Shown: positions 53,747 through 64,000 of the stretch, in pieces | Layout of the letters: each line of letters starts with the position of its first letter | Position numbering within the stretch: the stretch's first letter is position 1 | Notes under the pieces: generated by a model | What the model was told of the DNA's origin: nothing | Databases searched by the model: none | The model's input: the letters and a program-made list of their open reading frames with translations, nothing else | NCBI RefSeq assembly: GCF_022842045.1 | Contig: NZ_JALHQI010000005.1 | Location: 1 to 64,000, forward strand | Reading direction: 5' to 3' | DNA from: Arenimonas sp. | GTDB taxonomy: Bacteria; Pseudomonadota; Gammaproteobacteria; Xanthomonadales; Xanthomonadaceae | Length of the DNA: 64,000 bases | Made by a program: the position numbers and the translations under genes

Positions 53747-55267
53747 TTGAACGCCACCGTCCTGCTCACCTCGGTCGACATCAACATCCCGGGCTACCGC
53801 ATCCTGCGGCCGATCGGCGAGGGCGGCATGGCCTCGGTGTTCCTGGCCATGCAGGAGTCGCTCGACCGCGAGGTCGCGCTCAAGGTGATGTCGCCGGTGC
53901 TGGCCGCCAACGCCGAGTTCGCCGGCCGCTTCGTGGTCGAAGGCAAGATCACCGCCAAGCTGCAGCACCCGAACCTGGTGACGGTGTACGACATCGGCAG
54001 CCACAACGGCGTGTATTACTTGGCCGCTGAATACATCCCGGGCGGCACGCTGAAGGAGCGCATCGCCGCGGGCGACCTCAGCGTCGCGCACGTGCTCGAC
54101 ATCGCCACCGACATCGCGCAGGGCCTGGATTTCGCCCACGAGAAGGGCTTCGTGCACCGCGACGTCAAGCCGGGCAATGTGCTGTTCCGCAAGGATGGCC
54201 GCGTGGTGCTGGCCGACTTCGGCATCGCCAAGGCCATGGACGGCAGCAACAGCTCCACGGTCGCCGGTGCGTCGATCGGCACGCCCGACTACATGAGCCC
54301 GGAGCAGGCGCGCGGCGAGCCGGTGGACGGCCGTTCCGACCTCTACAGCCTCGGCACCGTGCTTTACGAGATGCTGGTCGGTGCGCCGCCCTACCAGGCC
54401 GCCGATCCGTTCACCGTCGCGTTGATGCACGTCACGCATCCCGTGCCGAGGCTGCCGGCGCCGCACGAATGGCTGCAGCCGCTGCTCGATGGCCTGATGG
54501 CCAAGGAGGCGGGCCAGCGCTTCAACACCGGCGCCGCGTTCATCGAGGCGCTGCATCGCGTGGTGTCGAACTCGCCCGAAGCGGCGGCAATCCAGGAAAC
54601 CCGCGCGCGCAAGCCGGGCGCCGGGCAGCGCATCGCCAGCGGCGCCGCCACCCAGCAGCGCACGCGCGTCAGCGTGGCGCGCGCCGGCAAACGACGGGCC
54701 TGGGTGCTGCCGGTGGCCGGACTGACCGGCCTGTTCGTGGTGGCGGTGCTGGCCTGGTGGCTGCTGTCGCCGTCGGCGGAGCCCGCCGGTGCAGCGGCGG
54801 ACGTCGCCGGGGCACGCCCCGACGCACGGCAGGTCGATGCGCCGGACGACCCCGGATTGCCGGCCGATTTCCAGATGCCCAAGCCGGTCGATGCCGGCGA
54901 CGCCGATGAAGTCGCGCGCCTGCTCAATGCCGCCGACCAGCTCTTCGAGTACGGCACCCGGACCGAGCCAGGCCGCAAACTGACCCTGCCCGATGACGAC
55001 AGCGCGCTGGGCTACTACCGCCAGGCGCTGCGCCTGGATCCCGAGAACGCGCGCGCGAAGGCCGGCATCGCGGGCATCGTCGCGTTCTACCGCAGCTTCG
55101 GCCACAAGGCCTGCGCGGCCGGCCGCTGGGCGCAATGCGGCGTCATCGTGCGCGCCGGGCTGGCGGTGGATCCCGCCGATGCCTACCTGCTCGGACTCCA
55201 GGACGCCGTCACCAGCGGCGAAGCGGGCGAGGAGCCTACGCTGCCGCCGGCACCACCCGCGGGCTGA
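53747..55267 (+). CDS. Transmembrane serine/threonine protein kinase (PknB-like)
   Basis: IGEGGMASVFLA, VALKVMS, FVHRDVKPGNVLF, LADFGIAKAM, GTPDYMSPEQARG; TM helix AWVLPVAGLTGLFVVAVLAWWLL then TPR-like extracytoplasmic tail. Confidence 0.93.
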   Translation: MNATVLLTSVDINIPGYRILRPIGEGGMASVFLAMQESLDREVALKVMSPVLAANAEFAGRFVVEGKITAKLQHPNLVTVYDIGSHNGVYYLAAEYIPGGTLKERIAAGDLSVAHVLDIATDIAQGLDFAHEKGFVHRDVKPGNVLFRKDGRVVLADFGIAKAMDGSNSSTVAGASIGTPDYMSPEQARGEPVDGRSDLYSLGTVLYEMLVGAPPYQAADPFTVALMHVTHPVPRLPAPHEWLQPLLDGLMAKEAGQRFNTGAAFIEALHRVVSNSPEAAAIQETRARKPGAGQRIASGAATQQRTRVSVARAGKRRAWVLPVAGLTGLFVVAVLAWWLLSPSAEPAGAAADVAGARPDARQVDAPDDPGLPADFQMPKPVDAGDADEVARLLNAADQLFEYGTRTEPGRKLTLPDDDSALGYYRQALRLDPENARAKAGIAGIVAFYRSFGHKACAAGRWAQCGVIVRAGLAVDPADAYLLGLQDAVTSGEAGEEPTLPPAPPAG

Positions 55268-55273
55268 GCCCGC

Positions 55274-55975
55274 TCAGCGGCGCCGCAGCAGGATGACGGT
55301 GACGTTGTCGGAACCGCCGCCGTCGAGCGCCGCCGACACCAGGTGGTCCACGCATTCCTGCGCCGACAGTTCGGCCTGGCCCAGCAGGTGGGCGATGCCG
55401 GCGTCGTCCACTTCCTCGGTCAGGCCGTCGCTGCACAGCAGCAGCTGCTGGCCGGGACGCAGTTCACCGGACAGGGTTTCCACCTTCAGGCTCTGTGGAT
55501 CGGTGACGCCGAGCGCCTGCGTCACCACGTTGCGGTGCGGATGCGCGCGCGCCTGCTCGGCGGTGATCGCGCCCTGGTCGATCAGTTCCTGCACGTAGCT
55601 GTGGTCCGACGAAAGCTGGCGCAGCTGGCCATTCCAGAGGTAGGCGCGGCTGTCGCCGACCCAGGCCAGCTCGAAGCGGTGGTCCTGGATGCGCAGCGCC
55701 ACCATGGTGGTGCCCATCGGCAGGCTTTCGGCGCGCTGTTTGCTGTGCCGGATGATGTCCTCGTCGGCGCGGCGGATGGCGTCGGCCAGCGCACGGCCGG
55801 CGCGCACCTCGCGCACCACCGTATCGCGGGCGAGGGCGCTGGCCACTTCGCCGAATTCGTGGCCGCCCATGCCATCGGCCACCAGCCACAGCCCGAGTTC
55901 GGAGTCCCCGAAATAGGTGTCCTCGTTCAACTCGCGGCGCAGGCCGACGTGGCTCAGGTGGCCGAACTCGATCAT
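55274..55975 (-). CDS. PP2C-family serine/threonine phosphatase
   Basis: GLRRELNEDTYF, GLWLVADGMGGHEFGEVAS, AWVGDSRAYLW, DGLTEEVDDAGI, GGGSDNVTVILLRR. Confidence 0.94.
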   Translation of the reverse strand: MIEFGHLSHVGLRRELNEDTYFGDSELGLWLVADGMGGHEFGEVASALARDTVVREVRAGRALADAIRRADEDIIRHSKQRAESLPMGTTMVALRIQDHRFELAWVGDSRAYLWNGQLRQLSSDHSYVQELIDQGAITAEQARAHPHRNVVTQALGVTDPQSLKVETLSGELRPGQQLLLCSDGLTEEVDDAGIAHLLGQAELSAQECVDHLVSAALDGGGSDNVTVILLRRR

Positions 55976-55977
55976 GC

Positions 55978-58281
55978 TCAAAACTCCATCCGCAGGCCCA
56001 TGGCCAGGTTCCACTGCGACTCGCCGTCGCGCCCCGCCAGGTGCTCATAGTAGAAGAAACCCGAGCGCCCGCCGGTGAGCACCATGGAAAGACCCAGGCC
56101 CAGGCGGAAGTAGTCGGTGTCCAGCGGATCGCCGGTGACCAGCATCGCGGTGCCGGTGGGGTCGTTGAGGAAGCGCGCTTCCATCGCCTGCGGGTCGTCG
56201 CGGAATTCGTGCTCCCACTCCAGCTGCAGGTGCGGCATCAGCACGCCCCAGTTCGTGCTGTGGGTCCAGGTGAACTTGGTGCCCAGCACGCTGGCCAGCG
56301 ACACCAGGTCGCGGCTGGCGATGTGCAGGCCCAGGCCGCTGCCCGGCGCGCCCGCCACGGTTTGCTCGCGGATGGCGTCGAAGCCCAGCCGCGTGTACAT
56401 CAGGCGGCCGTACGGCCCGATGCCGAAGGCACCGCGGCTGTAGTCGCGGCCGAAGGTGAACGCCGTCGCCAGCAGGTCGCCGGAGGCATCCGCCACCGCG
56501 GTCTGGTCGACGGTGGTGGTGCCGCCGCCGGCCAGCGGCAGCGTGTACTGGATCCGCCGCAGCATCTCGTAGTCGTTGCGGCCCCAGGTCAGCACGCTGT
56601 CGAGGTACCAGCTGTCGGCCTGGTAGAACGTGGTGTACGCCGAAACGCTCCAGCCCCGCGTCTCCAGTCCGCCGCGGTCGCCCGGCAGGTCGGTGTCCTG
56701 GCGGGTGTAGCCCAGTGATCCGCCGATCACCCAGCGGTCGCTCTTGCGATAGTCGAGGCCGGCGGTCAGGCCTTCGATGTCGTAATCGTAGGCCGGGTCG
56801 ACCACGCCGGCCTCGGACTCGCCGCGGCCCACGGTGCCCGCCGCGAAGAAGCCCCAGCGGCTGAAGTCGGCGCCGACTTCCGCTCCGGGCTCGTCCGCGC
56901 CGAACGCGCTCGACAAGGCTCCCAGCGAGATCGGCCCGGCCGGTGTGTCCAGCGCCAGGCCGCCGAAGCGGGTTCCGCCGGTGCCGCTGCGCAGCGCCGC
57001 GATGCGGGTCTTGAGGTTCTGGAACTGCGACTGCGCGGCGCTCATCGCGGCATTGGCCTGGGTCAGGGCGACGACCGCCATCAGCTGGTCCAGCGCGTTG
57101 ACGGTCGCGTCCGGATCGAGGCCGGCGGCGGCTCCGATCTCGCGGCACCGGGCCAGCAGGTCGGTTTGCTGCGTCGTTGGCGCGGGCAGGTTGGCCAGCG
57201 CCGGGCACAGCGTGTCGATGGCGTCGGCGACCGCGCGCTGCGTGCGCGACAGCCCGGCCAGGTTGCCCAGTGCGCCGTTGAGCTGGAACACGGCGGGCGC
57301 TGCGGCCAGCGGCGAGCTCGCCGTAACCTCCACCGCTCCCGCCGTGGCCACCGTTACCGTGTTGCTGGCGACGCCAGCCCCGTCGGTCAGGGAGGTGGCC
57401 GAGGCCAGCGTGCCGACCGTCGCGGTCCAGTCCACGGTGGCGCCAGCTACCGGATTGCCCGCTGCGTCACGCAGCTCGACCTGAAGCGGCGCCGAGGTGG
57501 CCCCGGCGGCCAGGGTTTGGCCATCGCCCCCGGACACGGTCAGCGTTCCCAGCGCATCGACGGTGAGGTTGAACACGACGATCGCGGTCGGGTCGTCCTG
57601 GCGCACGGCGCTGATGGTGACCGGGCCCGGGGTCGCGCCGGCAGTGGCGGTCACGGCGGCGTTGCCGAAGTTGTCGGTGAGGCTGGTGGCGGCGGACAAC
57701 GTCGCGTCGCCCCCGGTGACCGTCCAGTCGATGCCGACGCCGACGGCGCCGAAGCCGTTGTTGGTGGCGTTGACCTGCAGCGCCGTCGCGAACGCCGTGT
57801 TGGGCAGGGTGGTCTGGTCGTTGCCGTCGATGTCGGTGAGCAGTGTCACCAATGCGTCGGTGCCGAAGTTGAAGACCAGCGAGCCCGGCGTGCAGAACGT
57901 GGGCACGCAGCTGGCCTGCACGGTGCCGGTGCCGCTCGGGGTCGGGCCGAGGTTGACGGTGAAGGTGTAGTCGGTATCGAGCAACACGGTCGGGGCGGTC
58001 GGCGGCACGATGCTGGCGCCGCCGGTGGTGTCGGACGTGATCGCGAGCACGATGTCCACCGTCGGCGTGCAGGCGACTTCCGCGCGCAGGGTGAAGCTGA
58101 CCTGGGTGCCCGCAGGGCCGGTCGCCGTGGTGGCGCCGACCGGGACGAAGTCGCAGCTTTGCGCCATCGACTGCCCACTCCACAGCAGCGAAACCGCGGA
58201 GAACAAAAGCAGCGCGGCGATTGCCCGAAGCGATGGTCTGGCGGGATGGCTGGAACGCGCCGCGCTACCCTGCGAGTCCAT
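55978..58281 (-). CDS. Autotransporter-type outer-membrane protein with Ig-like (BIG-type) passenger
   Basis: Signal peptide ending SGQSMAQ; repeated Ig-like segments (GDGQTLAAGATSAPLQVELRDAAGNPVAGATVDWTA...); C-terminal beta-barrel ending ...WNLAMGLRMEF with terminal Phe. Confidence 0.82.
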   Translation of the reverse strand: MDSQGSAARSSHPARPSLRAIAALLLFSAVSLLWSGQSMAQSCDFVPVGATTATGPAGTQVSFTLRAEVACTPTVDIVLAITSDTTGGASIVPPTAPTVLLDTDYTFTVNLGPTPSGTGTVQASCVPTFCTPGSLVFNFGTDALVTLLTDIDGNDQTTLPNTAFATALQVNATNNGFGAVGVGIDWTVTGGDATLSAATSLTDNFGNAAVTATAGATPGPVTISAVRQDDPTAIVVFNLTVDALGTLTVSGGDGQTLAAGATSAPLQVELRDAAGNPVAGATVDWTATVGTLASATSLTDGAGVASNTVTVATAGAVEVTASSPLAAAPAVFQLNGALGNLAGLSRTQRAVADAIDTLCPALANLPAPTTQQTDLLARCREIGAAAGLDPDATVNALDQLMAVVALTQANAAMSAAQSQFQNLKTRIAALRSGTGGTRFGGLALDTPAGPISLGALSSAFGADEPGAEVGADFSRWGFFAAGTVGRGESEAGVVDPAYDYDIEGLTAGLDYRKSDRWVIGGSLGYTRQDTDLPGDRGGLETRGWSVSAYTTFYQADSWYLDSVLTWGRNDYEMLRRIQYTLPLAGGGTTTVDQTAVADASGDLLATAFTFGRDYSRGAFGIGPYGRLMYTRLGFDAIREQTVAGAPGSGLGLHIASRDLVSLASVLGTKFTWTHSTNWGVLMPHLQLEWEHEFRDDPQAMEARFLNDPTGTAMLVTGDPLDTDYFRLGLGLSMVLTGGRSGFFYYEHLAGRDGESQWNLAMGLRMEF

Positions 58282-58384
58282 CGCTTTTCCCCTTGAATGC
58301 GGTTATAAACTGGGCCTCGAGTATAGCGGCTGGCGCGCCGCTGCAAGGGTTCCGGCGCGAGCCGCATTGCTTCCCCACGGAGCC

Positions 58385-60394
58385 ATGCCCATGAACTTGC
58401 GCACCCCTTGTCCGCTCATTCCCCGCTTGTCCGTTCTTGCGTTCGGCTGCGTGCTGGCGCTGGTCGCGGGCTGGCCCGCTGCACCTGCGCAAGCCGCCGT
58501 CCGCAACGCCGAGGACCTGCTGATCGTCGACTGCCTGCTGCCCGGGCAGATCCGCCGCCTGGGTCGCCAGGCCACGTACCTCAGCGCTCGCCGCCCGGTT
58601 CGCACCACGCAGGCCGACTGCCAGATTCGCGGCGGCGAGTACGTCTCCTACGATCGCGCCAACTACCAGACCGCGCTCAAGGTCTGGCTCGAGGGTGCGA
58701 TGTCCGGCGATGCCGAGGCGCAGAACAACGTCGGCGAGATTTATTCCAAGGGCCTCGGCACCGCGCCCGACTACGGCATGGCCTTCCAGTGGTTCAAGAA
58801 GGCCGCGGACCAGGGCTACGGCCGCGCCAAGATCAACCTCGGCTACCTTTACGAGCAGGGCCTGGGCGTCGAGCGCGACCAGGCCGCGGCGCTGAACCTC
58901 TACCGCGAGGCCTCGGGCATCGAGGACGAACTGATGTACGCCTCCGTGGTGCAGGTCGAGATCAAGGCGCGCGACCAGAAGATCACCGGCCTCGAGCAGC
59001 AGGTGCAGGCCGGCGAGGCCGAGTCGGCCGCGCTGCGCGAGCAGGTGCGCCAGCTGCAGCAGGAACTTGCGCAGCGACGCAGCGCGCTCGCCGACGCCCG
59101 GCGCCAGCTGTCCGACACCCAGGCCAAGCTGGCGCAGGCGCGCCAGCAGCAGGACGACGAGCTCACCAAGCTGCTCGAGAACCAGCTGCTGGCGCAGGAA
59201 GAACAGATCAACAGCCAGCGCACCCAACTCGCTTCGCTCGAGCAGCGTGCGGGTGCGTCGGCGGGCGGCGTTTATGCCGCGGCGCCGATGCTGGAAATCC
59301 TCGACCCGGTCTTCGTCGCCACCCGCGGCCGCAACACCGCGGTCTACCGCGGAGGCCCCGGCAAGCGCCAGGTGGTCGGGCGGGTGACCGCGCCGGAGCG
59401 CGTCGGCGCGATTACGGTCAACGGCCAGCCGGCGCCGCTCAACGCCAGCGGCGGCTTCAGCGCCGAGATCGAGGTGCCTGCGGGCGGTGCGCAGGTGCAG
59501 GTCGCCGCCACCGACAAGGCTGGCGGGCGCGCCGAGCTGGCCTTCACCCTGCTGCCGCAGGCGGCGGCCGCCCCGGTCTCCGGCGCGTCGCCGGCGGGCG
59601 ACGGCAAGCTGCCGCGCGGGGTCAGCCTCGGGCGCTACTACGCGGTGGTGATCGGCAACAACAGCTACCGCGATCCGGCCTATCCCACGCTCACCAGCGC
59701 CGCCAACGACGCCAACGCGGTGGCCGCGCTGCTGCGCGAGCGCTACGGCTACGACGCCAGCCTGGTGCTCAACGGCGGCCGGCTCGAGATACTCACCGCG
59801 CTCAACGAAATGCGCGAGAAGCTCAAGCCCGAGGACAACCTGCTGGTCTATTACGCGGGCCACGGCGAGATCGACGCGCGCGGCCGGGGCTACTGGGTGC
59901 CCAGCGACGGCGCCGCCAACGCCGAGAAGACCTGGATATCGAACGCGGCCATCAGCGACATCCTCAACACCATCCCGGCGCGGCACGTGCTGGTGGTGGC
60001 CGACTCCTGCTACTCGGGCACGATGACCCGGGCCTCGGTGCCCACCTTCGACCCGGGCTCGATGGCGCCGGGGCAGTGGGACGGCTGGGTCAAGGCCATG
60101 GCCGATGGCCGATCGCGCACGGCCCTGACCTCGGGCGGCGTGCAGCCGGTGCCCGACACCGGCTCGGGCCGCCACAGCTACTTCGCCCGCGCCTTCCTGA
60201 ACGTGCTGCAGGACAACAACCGCCTCCTCGAGGGCCAGCGCCTGTTCCGGGAGGTTTCGACCGCGCTGGCGCTGGGCGCCATCGACGCCTCGGTCCCGCA
60301 GGTGCCGCAGTACTCGCCGATCCGGTTCGCCGGCCACGAAAGCGGCGAGTTCTTCTTCCTGCCCAAGGGCGCCGGGAGCCGGTCGGGCCCCTGA
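58385..60394 (+). CDS. Exported Sel1-repeat/coiled-coil caspase-like (peptidase C14) protein
   Basis: Signal peptide; Sel1 repeats (AMSGDAEAQNNVGEIYSKGLGTAPDYGMAFQWFKKAADQGYGRAKINLGYLYEQGLGVERD); coiled coil; C14 dyad YYAGHGE (His codon 59861-59863) and VADSCYSG (Cys codon 60008-60010). Confidence 0.9.
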   Translation: MPMNLRTPCPLIPRLSVLAFGCVLALVAGWPAAPAQAAVRNAEDLLIVDCLLPGQIRRLGRQATYLSARRPVRTTQADCQIRGGEYVSYDRANYQTALKVWLEGAMSGDAEAQNNVGEIYSKGLGTAPDYGMAFQWFKKAADQGYGRAKINLGYLYEQGLGVERDQAAALNLYREASGIEDELMYASVVQVEIKARDQKITGLEQQVQAGEAESAALREQVRQLQQELAQRRSALADARRQLSDTQAKLAQARQQQDDELTKLLENQLLAQEEQINSQRTQLASLEQRAGASAGGVYAAAPMLEILDPVFVATRGRNTAVYRGGPGKRQVVGRVTAPERVGAITVNGQPAPLNASGGFSAEIEVPAGGAQVQVAATDKAGGRAELAFTLLPQAAAAPVSGASPAGDGKLPRGVSLGRYYAVVIGNNSYRDPAYPTLTSAANDANAVAALLRERYGYDASLVLNGGRLEILTALNEMREKLKPEDNLLVYYAGHGEIDARGRGYWVPSDGAANAEKTWISNAAISDILNTIPARHVLVVADSCYSGTMTRASVPTFDPGSMAPGQWDGWVKAMADGRSRTALTSGGVQPVPDTGSGRHSYFARAFLNVLQDNNRLLEGQRLFREVSTALALGAIDASVPQVPQYSPIRFAGHESGEFFFLPKGAGSRSGP

Positions 60395-60463: not shown

Positions 60464-60553
<90 letters not shown>

Positions 60554-60590: not shown

Positions 60591-60677
60591 TGCCCGGCGA
60601 AACGCCGCCGCGGTCGTTGTTATCGGCGGCCCGCTACGTGAGAATCGAGGCCACGCTTCCCATTCCCCCCGCAGGAA

Positions 60678-63600
60678 ATGAACATGCAGGCTGCTATCCG
60701 GGTATTCATCGTGGCCCTAGGCCTGTTCGTTCCCATCGCGCGATCCGAAGCTGCTTCGCCCGTCCCGCGCGAAGACGATACGCCTGCACTGGCGACCTAC
60801 CTGGTGTCGTTCGAGGAACCGGCCGCGGCGCGCTTCCGCGGCTTTGAGCCCGCCGACAAGGCGCGACCGCGGCTGGCCGCCACCAGCCCCCTGGCCATCG
60901 GTGCCCGCAAGTACGAGTCGCGCAGCCTCGAGGCCCGGGCCTACGTGGCCTACCTGGACGAGCAGCGCGAGGCGCGCCTCGCGGAAGCGGCCCGGCGCCT
61001 GGGCCGCCCGCTGCAGCCCCGCTACACCTACACCCATGCGATGAACGGCATGGCGGTGGCGTTGACCGCCGAAGAGGCCAGGCAGCTGGCCCGCATGCCT
61101 GGCGTGCGCCGCGTGACGCCGGATTTCAGGCGCTTCCTGCAGGCGGACCGGGGTCCGCAGTGGATCAAGGCAGACCAGGTCTGGAGCGGCGCCGCGACCG
61201 GCACGGCCAACCGCGGCGAGGGCGTCATCGTTGGCGTCATCGACAGCGGCATCAACCGGGCCCACTCGGCGTTCGCGGGAACCGGCATCACCAATCCGCT
61301 CGGCAGCTTCCGGGGCTACTGCGCTTCCACCCCGGCCGCCTGCAATTCCAAGCTCATCGGCCTCTGGGACTTCACCACCAGCGCCCTTGGCAACACCACC
61401 GACCCGGTGGATACCGATGGCCACGGCACCCATATCGCCAGCATCGCGGTGGGCAACGCGTTCGTGCGTTCGGGCACCACCTACAGCGGCGTGGCGCCGC
61501 GCGCCAACCTGATCGCGTACAAGGCCTGCGGCGCCACCGGGTGCGAAGGCAGCGCGCTGGTGGCGGCCATCAACCAGGCCGTCGCGGACGGGGTGGACGT
61601 CATCAACTATTCCCTCAGCGGCGACCCGGTGGATCCGTGGCTGGCGATCGGTGGTGCCATCAACGACGACAGCGAGGCGCTGCTGGCCGCGCGGGAAGCC
61701 GGCATCGTGGCGGCCGTCGCGGCCGGCGACGATGGCCCGACCCGCGGCTCGGTCGGCACGCCCGGCAATTCGCCCTGGGTCATGGCGGTGGCGGCCGCGA
61801 GCCACGACCGCACCGGTCCGGGCGACCGGTTGGACGGATTCAGCGCGCGTGGGCCCGTGGTGCCGCTGAGCGTCACCAAGCCCGACCTCACGGCGCCGGG
61901 CGTGTCGATCATCGCCGCGGGCCGCACTTTCGGCGATCCGGTCAGCGTGGCGGTGTTCTCCGGCACGTCGGCCTCCACGCCGTTCGTCGCCGGCGCCGCG
62001 GCGCTGGTGCGTTCGGTCAATCCGTCGGCGAACGCCAGCGCTGTCGTGTCTTCCCTGATGCTGACCGCGCGCAGCTCGGTCACCGAGGGTGGCGTCGCCA
62101 CCACGCCGCACGCCCAGGGCGCCGGCATGCTGGACGTTGCCAAGGCGGTGAGGGCAGGGGTGTTCCTGGACGTCGCGCCGGGCGCGTTCAACCTGCCGGT
62201 GGCCAGCCCGTACACGGGCGGCGCGGACGCGCTGAACCTGCCCACCCTTGCCCACGGTGCCTGCTACCGCACCTGCAGCCTTACCCGCACTTTCAAGCTG
62301 ATGCCCGGGGCCAACCCGGCGGGGTATGCGATCAGCGCCACGATGGATGCCGCGGGGGCGCAACTGTCGCCCAGCCTCAACGCGTTCACCAGCAGTGCCG
62401 GCGGCCAGGCCGTGGTGTTTACCGCCAACGTCGACGCGCCGGCGCTGGTGGGGCGTTGGGTGCATGGCCGCGTCACGCTGACCAATACCTCCGGGGATGG
62501 GCGGCCCAACCTCGTGCTGCCGGTTTCCATTTACGTGTCGCCGTTCGCGACCCAGGCCGCCGAGTTGGCCCTGTCGGGCATCGCGCGATCCGTCACGCGC
62601 GAGCGCGACGCGTTCGACGTGGAGGTCAGCGACCTGGTCGCGCTGCCCAGCGCCCGCTTCGTCGCGACGCCGTTGGTGGAGCCTGAAATCACCACGCAGG
62701 CCATCGCGGCCGGCACCCGGCAGCTGCGCCTGGTCAATATTCCGGCCACGCCCGCGGGCCAGCCTGCGGTCAGGTACCGGCTGCGCGCCAGCTCGGTCGC
62801 CGCCGTGGCCGGGCTGCAGCTGGCCGTCGGTCGCGATACCGACGGCGATTCCCTGCCCGACGCCAACGAAGCGGTCTGCGGCTCGCTGTGGTCGTACGCC
62901 AGCGAAACCTGCCAGTTCGAAGTGATGAGCGAGGCGGCGCCGGTCCGCTACTGGATTGCGCTGCAAAGCGAGAGCGCGGTGGCCATTACCGCCACGCTCG
63001 AGTCGTTCGTGGTGCCGCTGCAGGCCATGCCCGCCAGCAACCTGGCCGCCACCGGACCCGGGCGCACGGCGCCGGGCGAAACCTTCAGCCTGCGCCTGGT
63101 CTACGACGACCCGTCCCTGGTCGCGGGCGAGGTGCGCGTGGGCTACGTGCTGGTGCAGCCTTCGGCCGGCAACACGGCCATCGAGGTGCCGGTGCGCCTG
63201 ACGCGAAGCGGCGCCAGCTTCGAGCCCTTCGCGCTTGCCAACGGCGTGGCCCGCGCCGTCACGCTGCCCGCAGGCAGCAGCCATCGCGGTCTGTATTTCG
63301 ACGTCCCGCCGCATGCCACGGCCGTGCAGTTCAGCACCTCGGGCAGCACCGGCAACGTGGACCTGTACGTTGCGCGCGTGGCGTCGCCTGCCGGGCCGGC
63401 CATCGCCGAGGCCCCGGCCTGGGACAACAATGCCGCCCTGCGCGCCGCCACGGCCGGCGGCAATGAAACCCTTGTGGTCTCCGGCGGCAACCTCGCGCCG
63501 GGCCGTTGGTACGTGGTGCCGGTGAACCCCACGGGGGGCACGCTGGACGCCTCGGTGACGGCCACGGTCACGGCCCAGGGCGCCCGGCCGGGCTTCCTCT

Positions 63601-64000
63601 CGGGCCAGTACGTGAACCTGGCGCGCGACGGGCACGGCATCTTCGTGGATTTCGCCGGCCCGCAGGGGGCCCCCGACCAGTGGGTGACGGTCTGGTACAC
63701 GTACCTCGAGGACGGCACGCCGACCTGGTATTACTCGCAGGGCGCATCGCCGTCGGCGCCGGGCATCTGGCGGGCGGAGCTGTTCCGCGTCACCTGGGAC
63801 GGCGGCGGCACGCACGCGGTGGACGTGGGCGACGTGGTCATCACCGAGACCGGCGCGCAGTCGATGACCTTCAGCTTCAACCTCGACGGCAAGAGTGGCT
63901 TCGAACCGATGGTCCGGGTCGGCGGCGGCAGTTGCCCCACGTTCAACGGCCAGGCGCTGGACGCCAGCGGCCACTGGTATTCCCCCAGCCTGGCCGGCTT
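60678..64000 (+). CDS. S8 family serine peptidase (subtilase), exported; 3' end beyond window
   Basis: Manual translation from ATG 60678: MNMQAAIRVFIVALGLFVPIARSEAA...; Asp VIGVIDSG-type motif (VGVIDSGINRAH, codon 61242), His DGHGTHIAS (codon 61422), Ser SGTSASTPFVAG (codon 61968). Absent from ORF track as it has no stop in the window. Confidence 0.92.
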   Translation, partial: MNMQAAIRVFIVALGLFVPIARSEAASPVPREDDTPALATYLVSFEEPAAARFRGFEPADKARPRLAATSPLAIGARKYESRSLEARAYVAYLDEQREARLAEAARRLGRPLQPRYTYTHAMNGMAVALTAEEARQLARMPGVRRVTPDFRRFLQADRGPQWIKADQVWSGAATGTANRGEGVIVGVIDSGINRAHSAFAGTGITNPLGSFRGYCASTPAACNSKLIGLWDFTTSALGNTTDPVDTDGHGTHIASIAVGNAFVRSGTTYSGVAPRANLIAYKACGATGCEGSALVAAINQAVADGVDVINYSLSGDPVDPWLAIGGAINDDSEALLAAREAGIVAAVAAGDDGPTRGSVGTPGNSPWVMAVAAASHDRTGPGDRLDGFSARGPVVPLSVTKPDLTAPGVSIIAAGRTFGDPVSVAVFSGTSASTPFVAGAAALVRSVNPSANASAVVSSLMLTARSSVTEGGVATTPHAQGAGMLDVAKAVRAGVFLDVAPGAFNLPVASPYTGGADALNLPTLAHGACYRTCSLTRTFKLMPGANPAGYAISATMDAAGAQLSPSLNAFTSSAGGQAVVFTANVDAPALVGRWVHGRVTLTNTSGDGRPNLVLPVSIYVSPFATQAAELALSGIARSVTRERDAFDVEVSDLVALPSARFVATPLVEPEITTQAIAAGTRQLRLVNIPATPAGQPAVRYRLRASSVAAVAGLQLAVGRDTDGDSLPDANEAVCGSLWSYASETCQFEVMSEAAPVRYWIALQSESAVAITATLESFVVPLQAMPASNLAATGPGRTAPGETFSLRLVYDDPSLVAGEVRVGYVLVQPSAGNTAIEVPVRLTRSGASFEPFALANGVARAVTLPAGSSHRGLYFDVPPHATAVQFSTSGSTGNVDLYVARVASPAGPAIAEAPAWDNNAALRAATAGGNETLVVSGGNLAPGRWYVVPVNPTGGTLDASVTATVTAQGARPGFLSGQYVNLARDGHGIFVDFAGPQGAPDQWVTVWYTYLEDGTPTWYYSQGASPSAPGIWRAELFRVTWDGGGTHAVDVGDVVITETGAQSMTFSFNLDGKSGFEPMVRVGGGSCPTFNGQALDASGHWYSPSLAG

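Follow-up and report, generated by a model that had tools for sequence, protein, structure and literature searches.

The window analysed here, a 64,000-nucleotide stretch of an Arenimonas sp. contig, carries at positions 53747–60394 a module of four genes encoding a membrane Ser/Thr kinase (STPK), a PP2C phosphatase, an Ig-like autotransporter (AT) and an exported caspase-like protein with Sel1 repeats (CASP), all with Pfam matches that bear out the gene set named in a preliminary description of this DNA. The STPK gene (53747–55267, + strand, 506 aa; PF00069, E = 1.4e-47) converges on that of the cytoplasmic PP2C (55274–55975, − strand, 233 aa; PF13672 (PP2C_2), E = 1.7e-15), and the 6 bp previously reported between them proved to separate the two stop codons. 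The AT gene, encoding a classical type Va-like autotransporter (55978–58281, − strand; PF03797, E = 4.6e-49; Big_1, E = 9.2e-14), ends in a TGA (55980–55978) only 2 bp from the PP2C ATG (55975), consistent with the single operon already proposed for these two genes, and PP2C is translationally coupled to AT. Divergent from AT lies CASP (58391–60394, + strand, 667 aa; PF00656, E = 1.2e-18; Sel1, E = 6.3e-16), and the 109-bp spacer between them (58282–58390, assigned to neither strand) was annotated from its conservation as the divergent promoter/5′ region of the AT-PP2C unit and of CASP. Mean column identity in this spacer reached 86% across 11 Arenimonas loci, a strong conservation that suggests shared control of the genes on both sides; a scan of the spacer for the sigma-70 consensus found no site. 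The PP2C start is best set at 55975 because it is conserved in relatives, and that of CASP at 58391 rather than 58010 because a GGAG lies 8 nt upstream.

For this member of the Lysobacteraceae, the closest named locus was that of Arenimonas metalli (CASP identity 96%), and the whole block rnhA-dnaQ-STPK-PP2C-AT-CASP-tRNA-Ser is syntenic across Arenimonas and Silanimonas. Its last gene, a tRNA-Ser(cga) at 60464–60553 (+ strand), sits directly 3′ of CASP, a position kept in both genera, and just beyond it a frame at 60642–63998 (+ strand), which exits the window end, was judged by eye to encode a putative secreted subtilisin-type protease. In the A. daejeonensis record (L047), several genes of the region, STPK, AT and CASP included, are interrupted, possibly through sequencing errors.

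From its N-terminus, CASP comprises a Sec signal, a small domain with two Cys residues, both invariant, Sel1 repeats, a coiled coil of ~100 residues, an Ig-like domain and the C14 domain. An AlphaFold model (mean pLDDT 82.6) contained the Sel1 helices, coiled coil, Ig-like domain and caspase fold, and MALT1 paracaspase gave its best Foldseek matches. The caspase fold and His-Cys dyad that mark C14 proteases were thus found by Pfam, alignment, model and Foldseek, with catalytic His491 (codon 59861–59863, + strand) present in 73/73 aligned family sequences and catalytic Cys540 (codon 60008–60010, + strand; motif DSCYSG) in 72/73. Specificity-related conservation near the Cys was confined to an acidic residue two positions before it, Asp538, found in 73/73 family sequences; by analogy with orthocaspases, for which Arg/Lys specificity has precedent (PMC6426788), CASP likely cleaves after Arg or Lys. 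The Arenimonas protein has neither a TM nor a lipid anchor, and most CASP proteins beyond Arenimonas and its close relatives carry a lipobox-like signal and are predicted lipoproteins. Plasmids searched for mobile full-length copies yielded none covering 80% of CASP. Elsewhere in the Arenimonas genome (G000:C6:6291-8161), two more adjacent C14 matches occur on the same strand, in long reading frames of 908 and 1155 aa.

AT consists of a signal peptide, an Ig-like passenger, a helical linker with two Cys residues and a C-terminal barrel. In its model the barrel comprises 12 long strands and contains a pore helix; Foldseek searches with this model returned EstA, AaaA, BrkA and NalP as top matches. 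AT therefore has the Sec signal and C-terminal 12-strand barrel with pore helix of type Va autotransporters; a beta-helical passenger, usual in that type yet not required, was not found, the passenger matching Big_1 Ig-like domains in Pfam. Passenger length varies among relatives, with open frames of ~0.45 to 2.7 k residues. The conserved Gln/Asn/Arg of the pre-barrel helix were considered as the caspase cleavage site and dropped, because they resemble what we take to be the generic autotransporter pore-helix motif.

The kinase domain of STPK (residues 17–260) is followed by one TM helix (~318–336) and a predicted periplasmic C-terminal tail, and topology prediction gave a single TM helix and periplasmic tail for most of its relatives as well. 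STPK looks active, and relatives keep its catalytic motifs (K46, the HRD His/Asp and DFG); the aligned metal-ligand Asp residues of PP2C are conserved with one exception, and the motifs of both enzymes are intact. Identity to relatives is 75–100% for PP2C and the kinase domain and drops to 35–87% in the kinase tail and 34–71% in the AT passenger, as would be expected of outer parts that face the environment. Assignment to a PASTA-kinase unit was rejected, STPK scoring 304.8 against the NCBIfam PASTA-kinase family (cut-off 450) and showing no PASTA repeats with Pfam or NCBIfam; PP2C scored 224.9 bits against the NCBIfam Stp1 model (cut-off 230), and no VWA domain was matched in the module. No FHA gene lies near the Arenimonas kinase within the window, the FHA proteins of this genome being encoded on other contigs. 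On one of these (G000:C2:36476-38100) an FHA domain adjoins a different kinase domain, and the two are a candidate phospho-signalling pair of their own.

Across 200 genomes of the order, CASP was detected in 64, AT in 67 and both in 64, with the two genes on the same contig and less than 10 kb apart in 53 of the 64; among 369 genomes of the class, the corresponding numbers were 29, 31 and 28. Fisher tests of this co-occurrence gave 2.8e-49 (order) and 1.5e-37 (class) while ignoring the relatedness of the genomes, and the spread over families is for this reason the better argument. Either AT or STPK occurred within 10 kb of CASP at 47 of 53 loci, representing 25 of 26 GTDB families, with AT there at 36 loci (21 families), STPK at 35 (21 families) and PP2C at 13 (9 families), the last being a regular rather than universal member. 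Genomes examined at class level encode just 3–12 kinases, so a chance kinase within 10 kb would be expected in only a few per cent. Gene order and strand are rearranged between families, AT and CASP being divergent in Lysobacteraceae and in tandem in several families, with AT-STPK-CASP in Sedimenticola; the phylum scan added one more family, with AT adjoining CASP at both of its two loci. The module thus extends well past Xanthomonadales, and AT and CASP are its tightest, near-obligate pair, to which STPK may be an add-on, given that kinase and phosphatase are the less constant neighbours. The independent scattering of homologues that would have spoken against a candidate envelope phospho-signalling/protease module was not observed; AT/CASP co-occurrence and proximity support the module, with signalling and proteolysis as proposals for what it does.

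Several lineages link these genes to type VI secretion systems (T6SS). In Sedimenticola, a tight AT-STPK-CASP tandem is followed by Fha-TssJ-TssK-TssL-TssM-TagF/PP2C, occupying the place where PpkA/PppA genes would be, and a Thiotrichaceae locus reads Fha-TssK-TssL-TssM-TagF-PP2C-CASP. A single 44-kb contig of genome G182 has CASP-PP2C-TagF-TssM-L-K-J-Fha at one end and AT-STPK at the opposite end, its middle encoding TssC, TssF, a ClpV-type AAA ATPase and VgrG; the interval from ClpV to AT contains VgrG and DUF2169 genes. Genome G060 places STPK-AT-CASP within a T6SS cluster and the module of G133 is also T6SS-linked; all three genomes possess a T6SS. Module genes sit with fha-tssJKLM-tagF at loci L052, L056 and L072 (G182), and at L052 the Fha substrate is encoded together with the kinase. 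The transmembrane STPK with intact catalytic motifs that T6SS threonine phosphorylation calls for is present in the window itself. Among the five Arenimonas genomes tested (the one studied here and four congeners), TssC (PF05943) was not found, nor was it in most lineages of the order; an obligate T6SS accessory role was therefore rejected for Arenimonas, and T6SS is better regarded as one output of the module than as its defining one. In two T6SS-linked CASP regions (L124:16139-17689 and L109:1153-2616), a second and divergent sheath protein combines VipA-like and VipB domains in a single polypeptide. Genome G475 carries a second CASP copy directly behind a TssJ-like domain (L094:7869-10760), and T6SS models detected no other T6SS gene in that stretch.

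More distant C14 domains were found fused to giant surface-type proteins, in support of a functional connection of C14 proteases with surface repeat proteins. In genome G548, such a domain is joined to a two-partner secretion (TPS) domain and repeats, with T6SS Fha, PP2C and STPK as neighbours, and TPS fusions also occur in Azospirillum, G679 and G343; other fusions involve DUF4347, the majority together with cadherin or Ig domains. At L132:1127-11729, TpsB is followed by a TpsA with a C-terminal C14 domain and then by T6SS Fha and PP2C, so that a caspase fused to a giant two-partner-secreted protein lies beside T6SS regulators.

Taken together, we consider it very likely that the products of the four genes work together, and their recurrence across many families of Gammaproteobacteria indicates that they probably form a hitherto undescribed envelope-spanning pathway that joins signalling to a protease. 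For its mode of action we tentatively favour, at a little under even confidence, an outside-in trans-envelope relay resembling TagQRST-PpkA-PppA, the Pseudomonas pathway that detects damage to the outer membrane (PMC11881912, PMC10482370), with AT-CASP as the outer part and with inferred direction, signal, protease substrates and kinase targets. AT would display its Ig-like stalk at the surface, while CASP, periplasmic and in most relatives lipid-anchored, would bridge the outer membrane and the inner-membrane kinase as a scaffold built of its Sel1 repeats, coiled coil and Ig domain. AT would perceive contact or a disturbance of the envelope and release CASP activity, probably cleavage after Arg/Lys, which would alter the periplasmic tail of the kinase; the kinase would then phosphorylate cytoplasmic targets, FHA-domain proteins being the likeliest readers, and PP2C would reset the signal. 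The output in some lineages would be the Fha protein of type VI secretion, and must differ in Arenimonas, where TssC is absent from the genomes tested.

The principal competitor, which we regard as rather unlikely, is an inside-out adhesin switch like LapD-LapG, in which the kinase/phosphatase state would control a periplasmic caspase that cuts the repeat-rich AT and sheds it, or retains it. Such a switch would accommodate the near-obligate AT-CASP pair, the variable passenger length and the fusion of C14 relatives to surface-type proteins of the TPS, cadherin or Ig kinds, and has a precedent in the cleavage of LapA and the two-partner-secreted CdrA by LapG under the control of LapD (PMC4359373, PMC4694147). 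However, a folded autotransporter passenger outside the cell would be out of a periplasmic protease's reach, and a kinase output better fits the Fha/TagF linkage. We favour the outside-in relay over it because the module resembles TagQRST-PpkA-PppA both in its layout, from outer membrane through periplasm and inner membrane to cytoplasm, and in the position it occupies within T6SS clusters. CASP could instead be merely a biogenesis or quality-control protease for AT, with kinase and phosphatase nearby for unrelated reasons, as the AT-CASP pairs without nearby STPK and PP2C at L057, L060-L063 and L069 would allow; we find this improbable, given that STPK adjoins CASP at 35 loci from 21 families and accompanies it without AT in the fetched stretches of L058, L082, L083, L085 and L090.

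Bacterial caspase homologues have been discussed in programmed cell death, Xanthomonas included (PMC3501461), from which a cell-death or defence unit triggered by stress or attack, with the caspase as executioner, might be proposed. Yet CASP is exported, lies in a conserved chromosomal block from dnaQ to tRNA-Ser and is not of the Xanthomonas polysaccharide-deacetylase type, making this explanation highly improbable. PADLOC recovered no known defence gene set in the module, its STPK matches being kinase-domain families, mostly PD-T4-6, and its PP2C and caspase matches weak; with no defence-island context and with housekeeping flanks, phage defence was rejected. Finally, the syntenic rnhA to tRNA-Ser block of Arenimonas and Silanimonas proves little alone and would suit an accidental adjacency held by local synteny, but the set is kept in other families despite different flanks, orders and strands, and AT and CASP co-occur even if far apart or on separate contigs. 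This explanation is scarcely credible and was rejected, as AT or STPK near 47/53 CASP loci and AT in 64/64 CASP genomes of the order lie far beyond chance.

No description of the module was found in the open-access literature, the scope of our search, with subscription journals outside it, and a 2023 review of T6SS regulation mentioned neither a caspase nor an autotransporter. It is possible, and we suggest it with more reserve than the relay itself, that the module represents an unknown class of trans-envelope signalling, in which a proteolytic sensor, made up of a surface autotransporter and a caspase that is periplasmic and often lipid-anchored, would drive a eukaryotic-type kinase/phosphatase switch, as an ancient gammaproteobacterial pathway plugged into T6SS in several lineages. 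The roles of bacterial caspase homologues are largely obscure, and one subfamily now has a near-obligate autotransporter partner and often a kinase/phosphatase pair, which opens its role to direct study in Arenimonas type strains that are harmless and can be cultured. The T6SS linkage suggests another way to trigger type VI secretion. Fusions to adhesins suggest that the link of C14 proteases to surface repeat proteins is general.

Each component recalls a known system and departs from it. Like EstA, AaaA, BrkA and NalP, AT has a 12-strand barrel and preceding helix, but it differs from these classical type Va autotransporters in its Ig-like passenger, two-Cys helical linker and tie to CASP. 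CASP shares its His-Cys dyad and caspase fold with orthocaspases, metacaspases and MALT1 paracaspase, whereas it is exported or lipid-anchored, carries Sel1 repeats, a coiled coil and an Ig domain, and has AT as a partner. Pairs of the PASTA kinase-Stp1 type likewise set a transmembrane STPK beside a PP2C, although the module's two enzymes fall under both NCBIfam cut-offs and STPK lacks a PASTA match. A periplasmic cysteine protease, large surface adhesin and inner-membrane regulator are common to the module and the Lap system (LapA/CdrA-LapG-LapD); the module, in contrast, uses a C14 caspase rather than LapG, phospho-signalling rather than a c-di-GMP receptor, and a classical autotransporter, and neither LapG protease nor LapD c-di-GMP receptor domains were found in the four proteins with Pfam or NCBIfam. 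TagQRST-PpkA-PppA-TagF-Fha of Pseudomonas and RtkS-PpkA of Serratia also combine a membrane STPK bearing a periplasmic part with a PP2C antagonist and with envelope sensors, a lipoprotein among them, but to this arrangement the module clusters add an autotransporter and a caspase.
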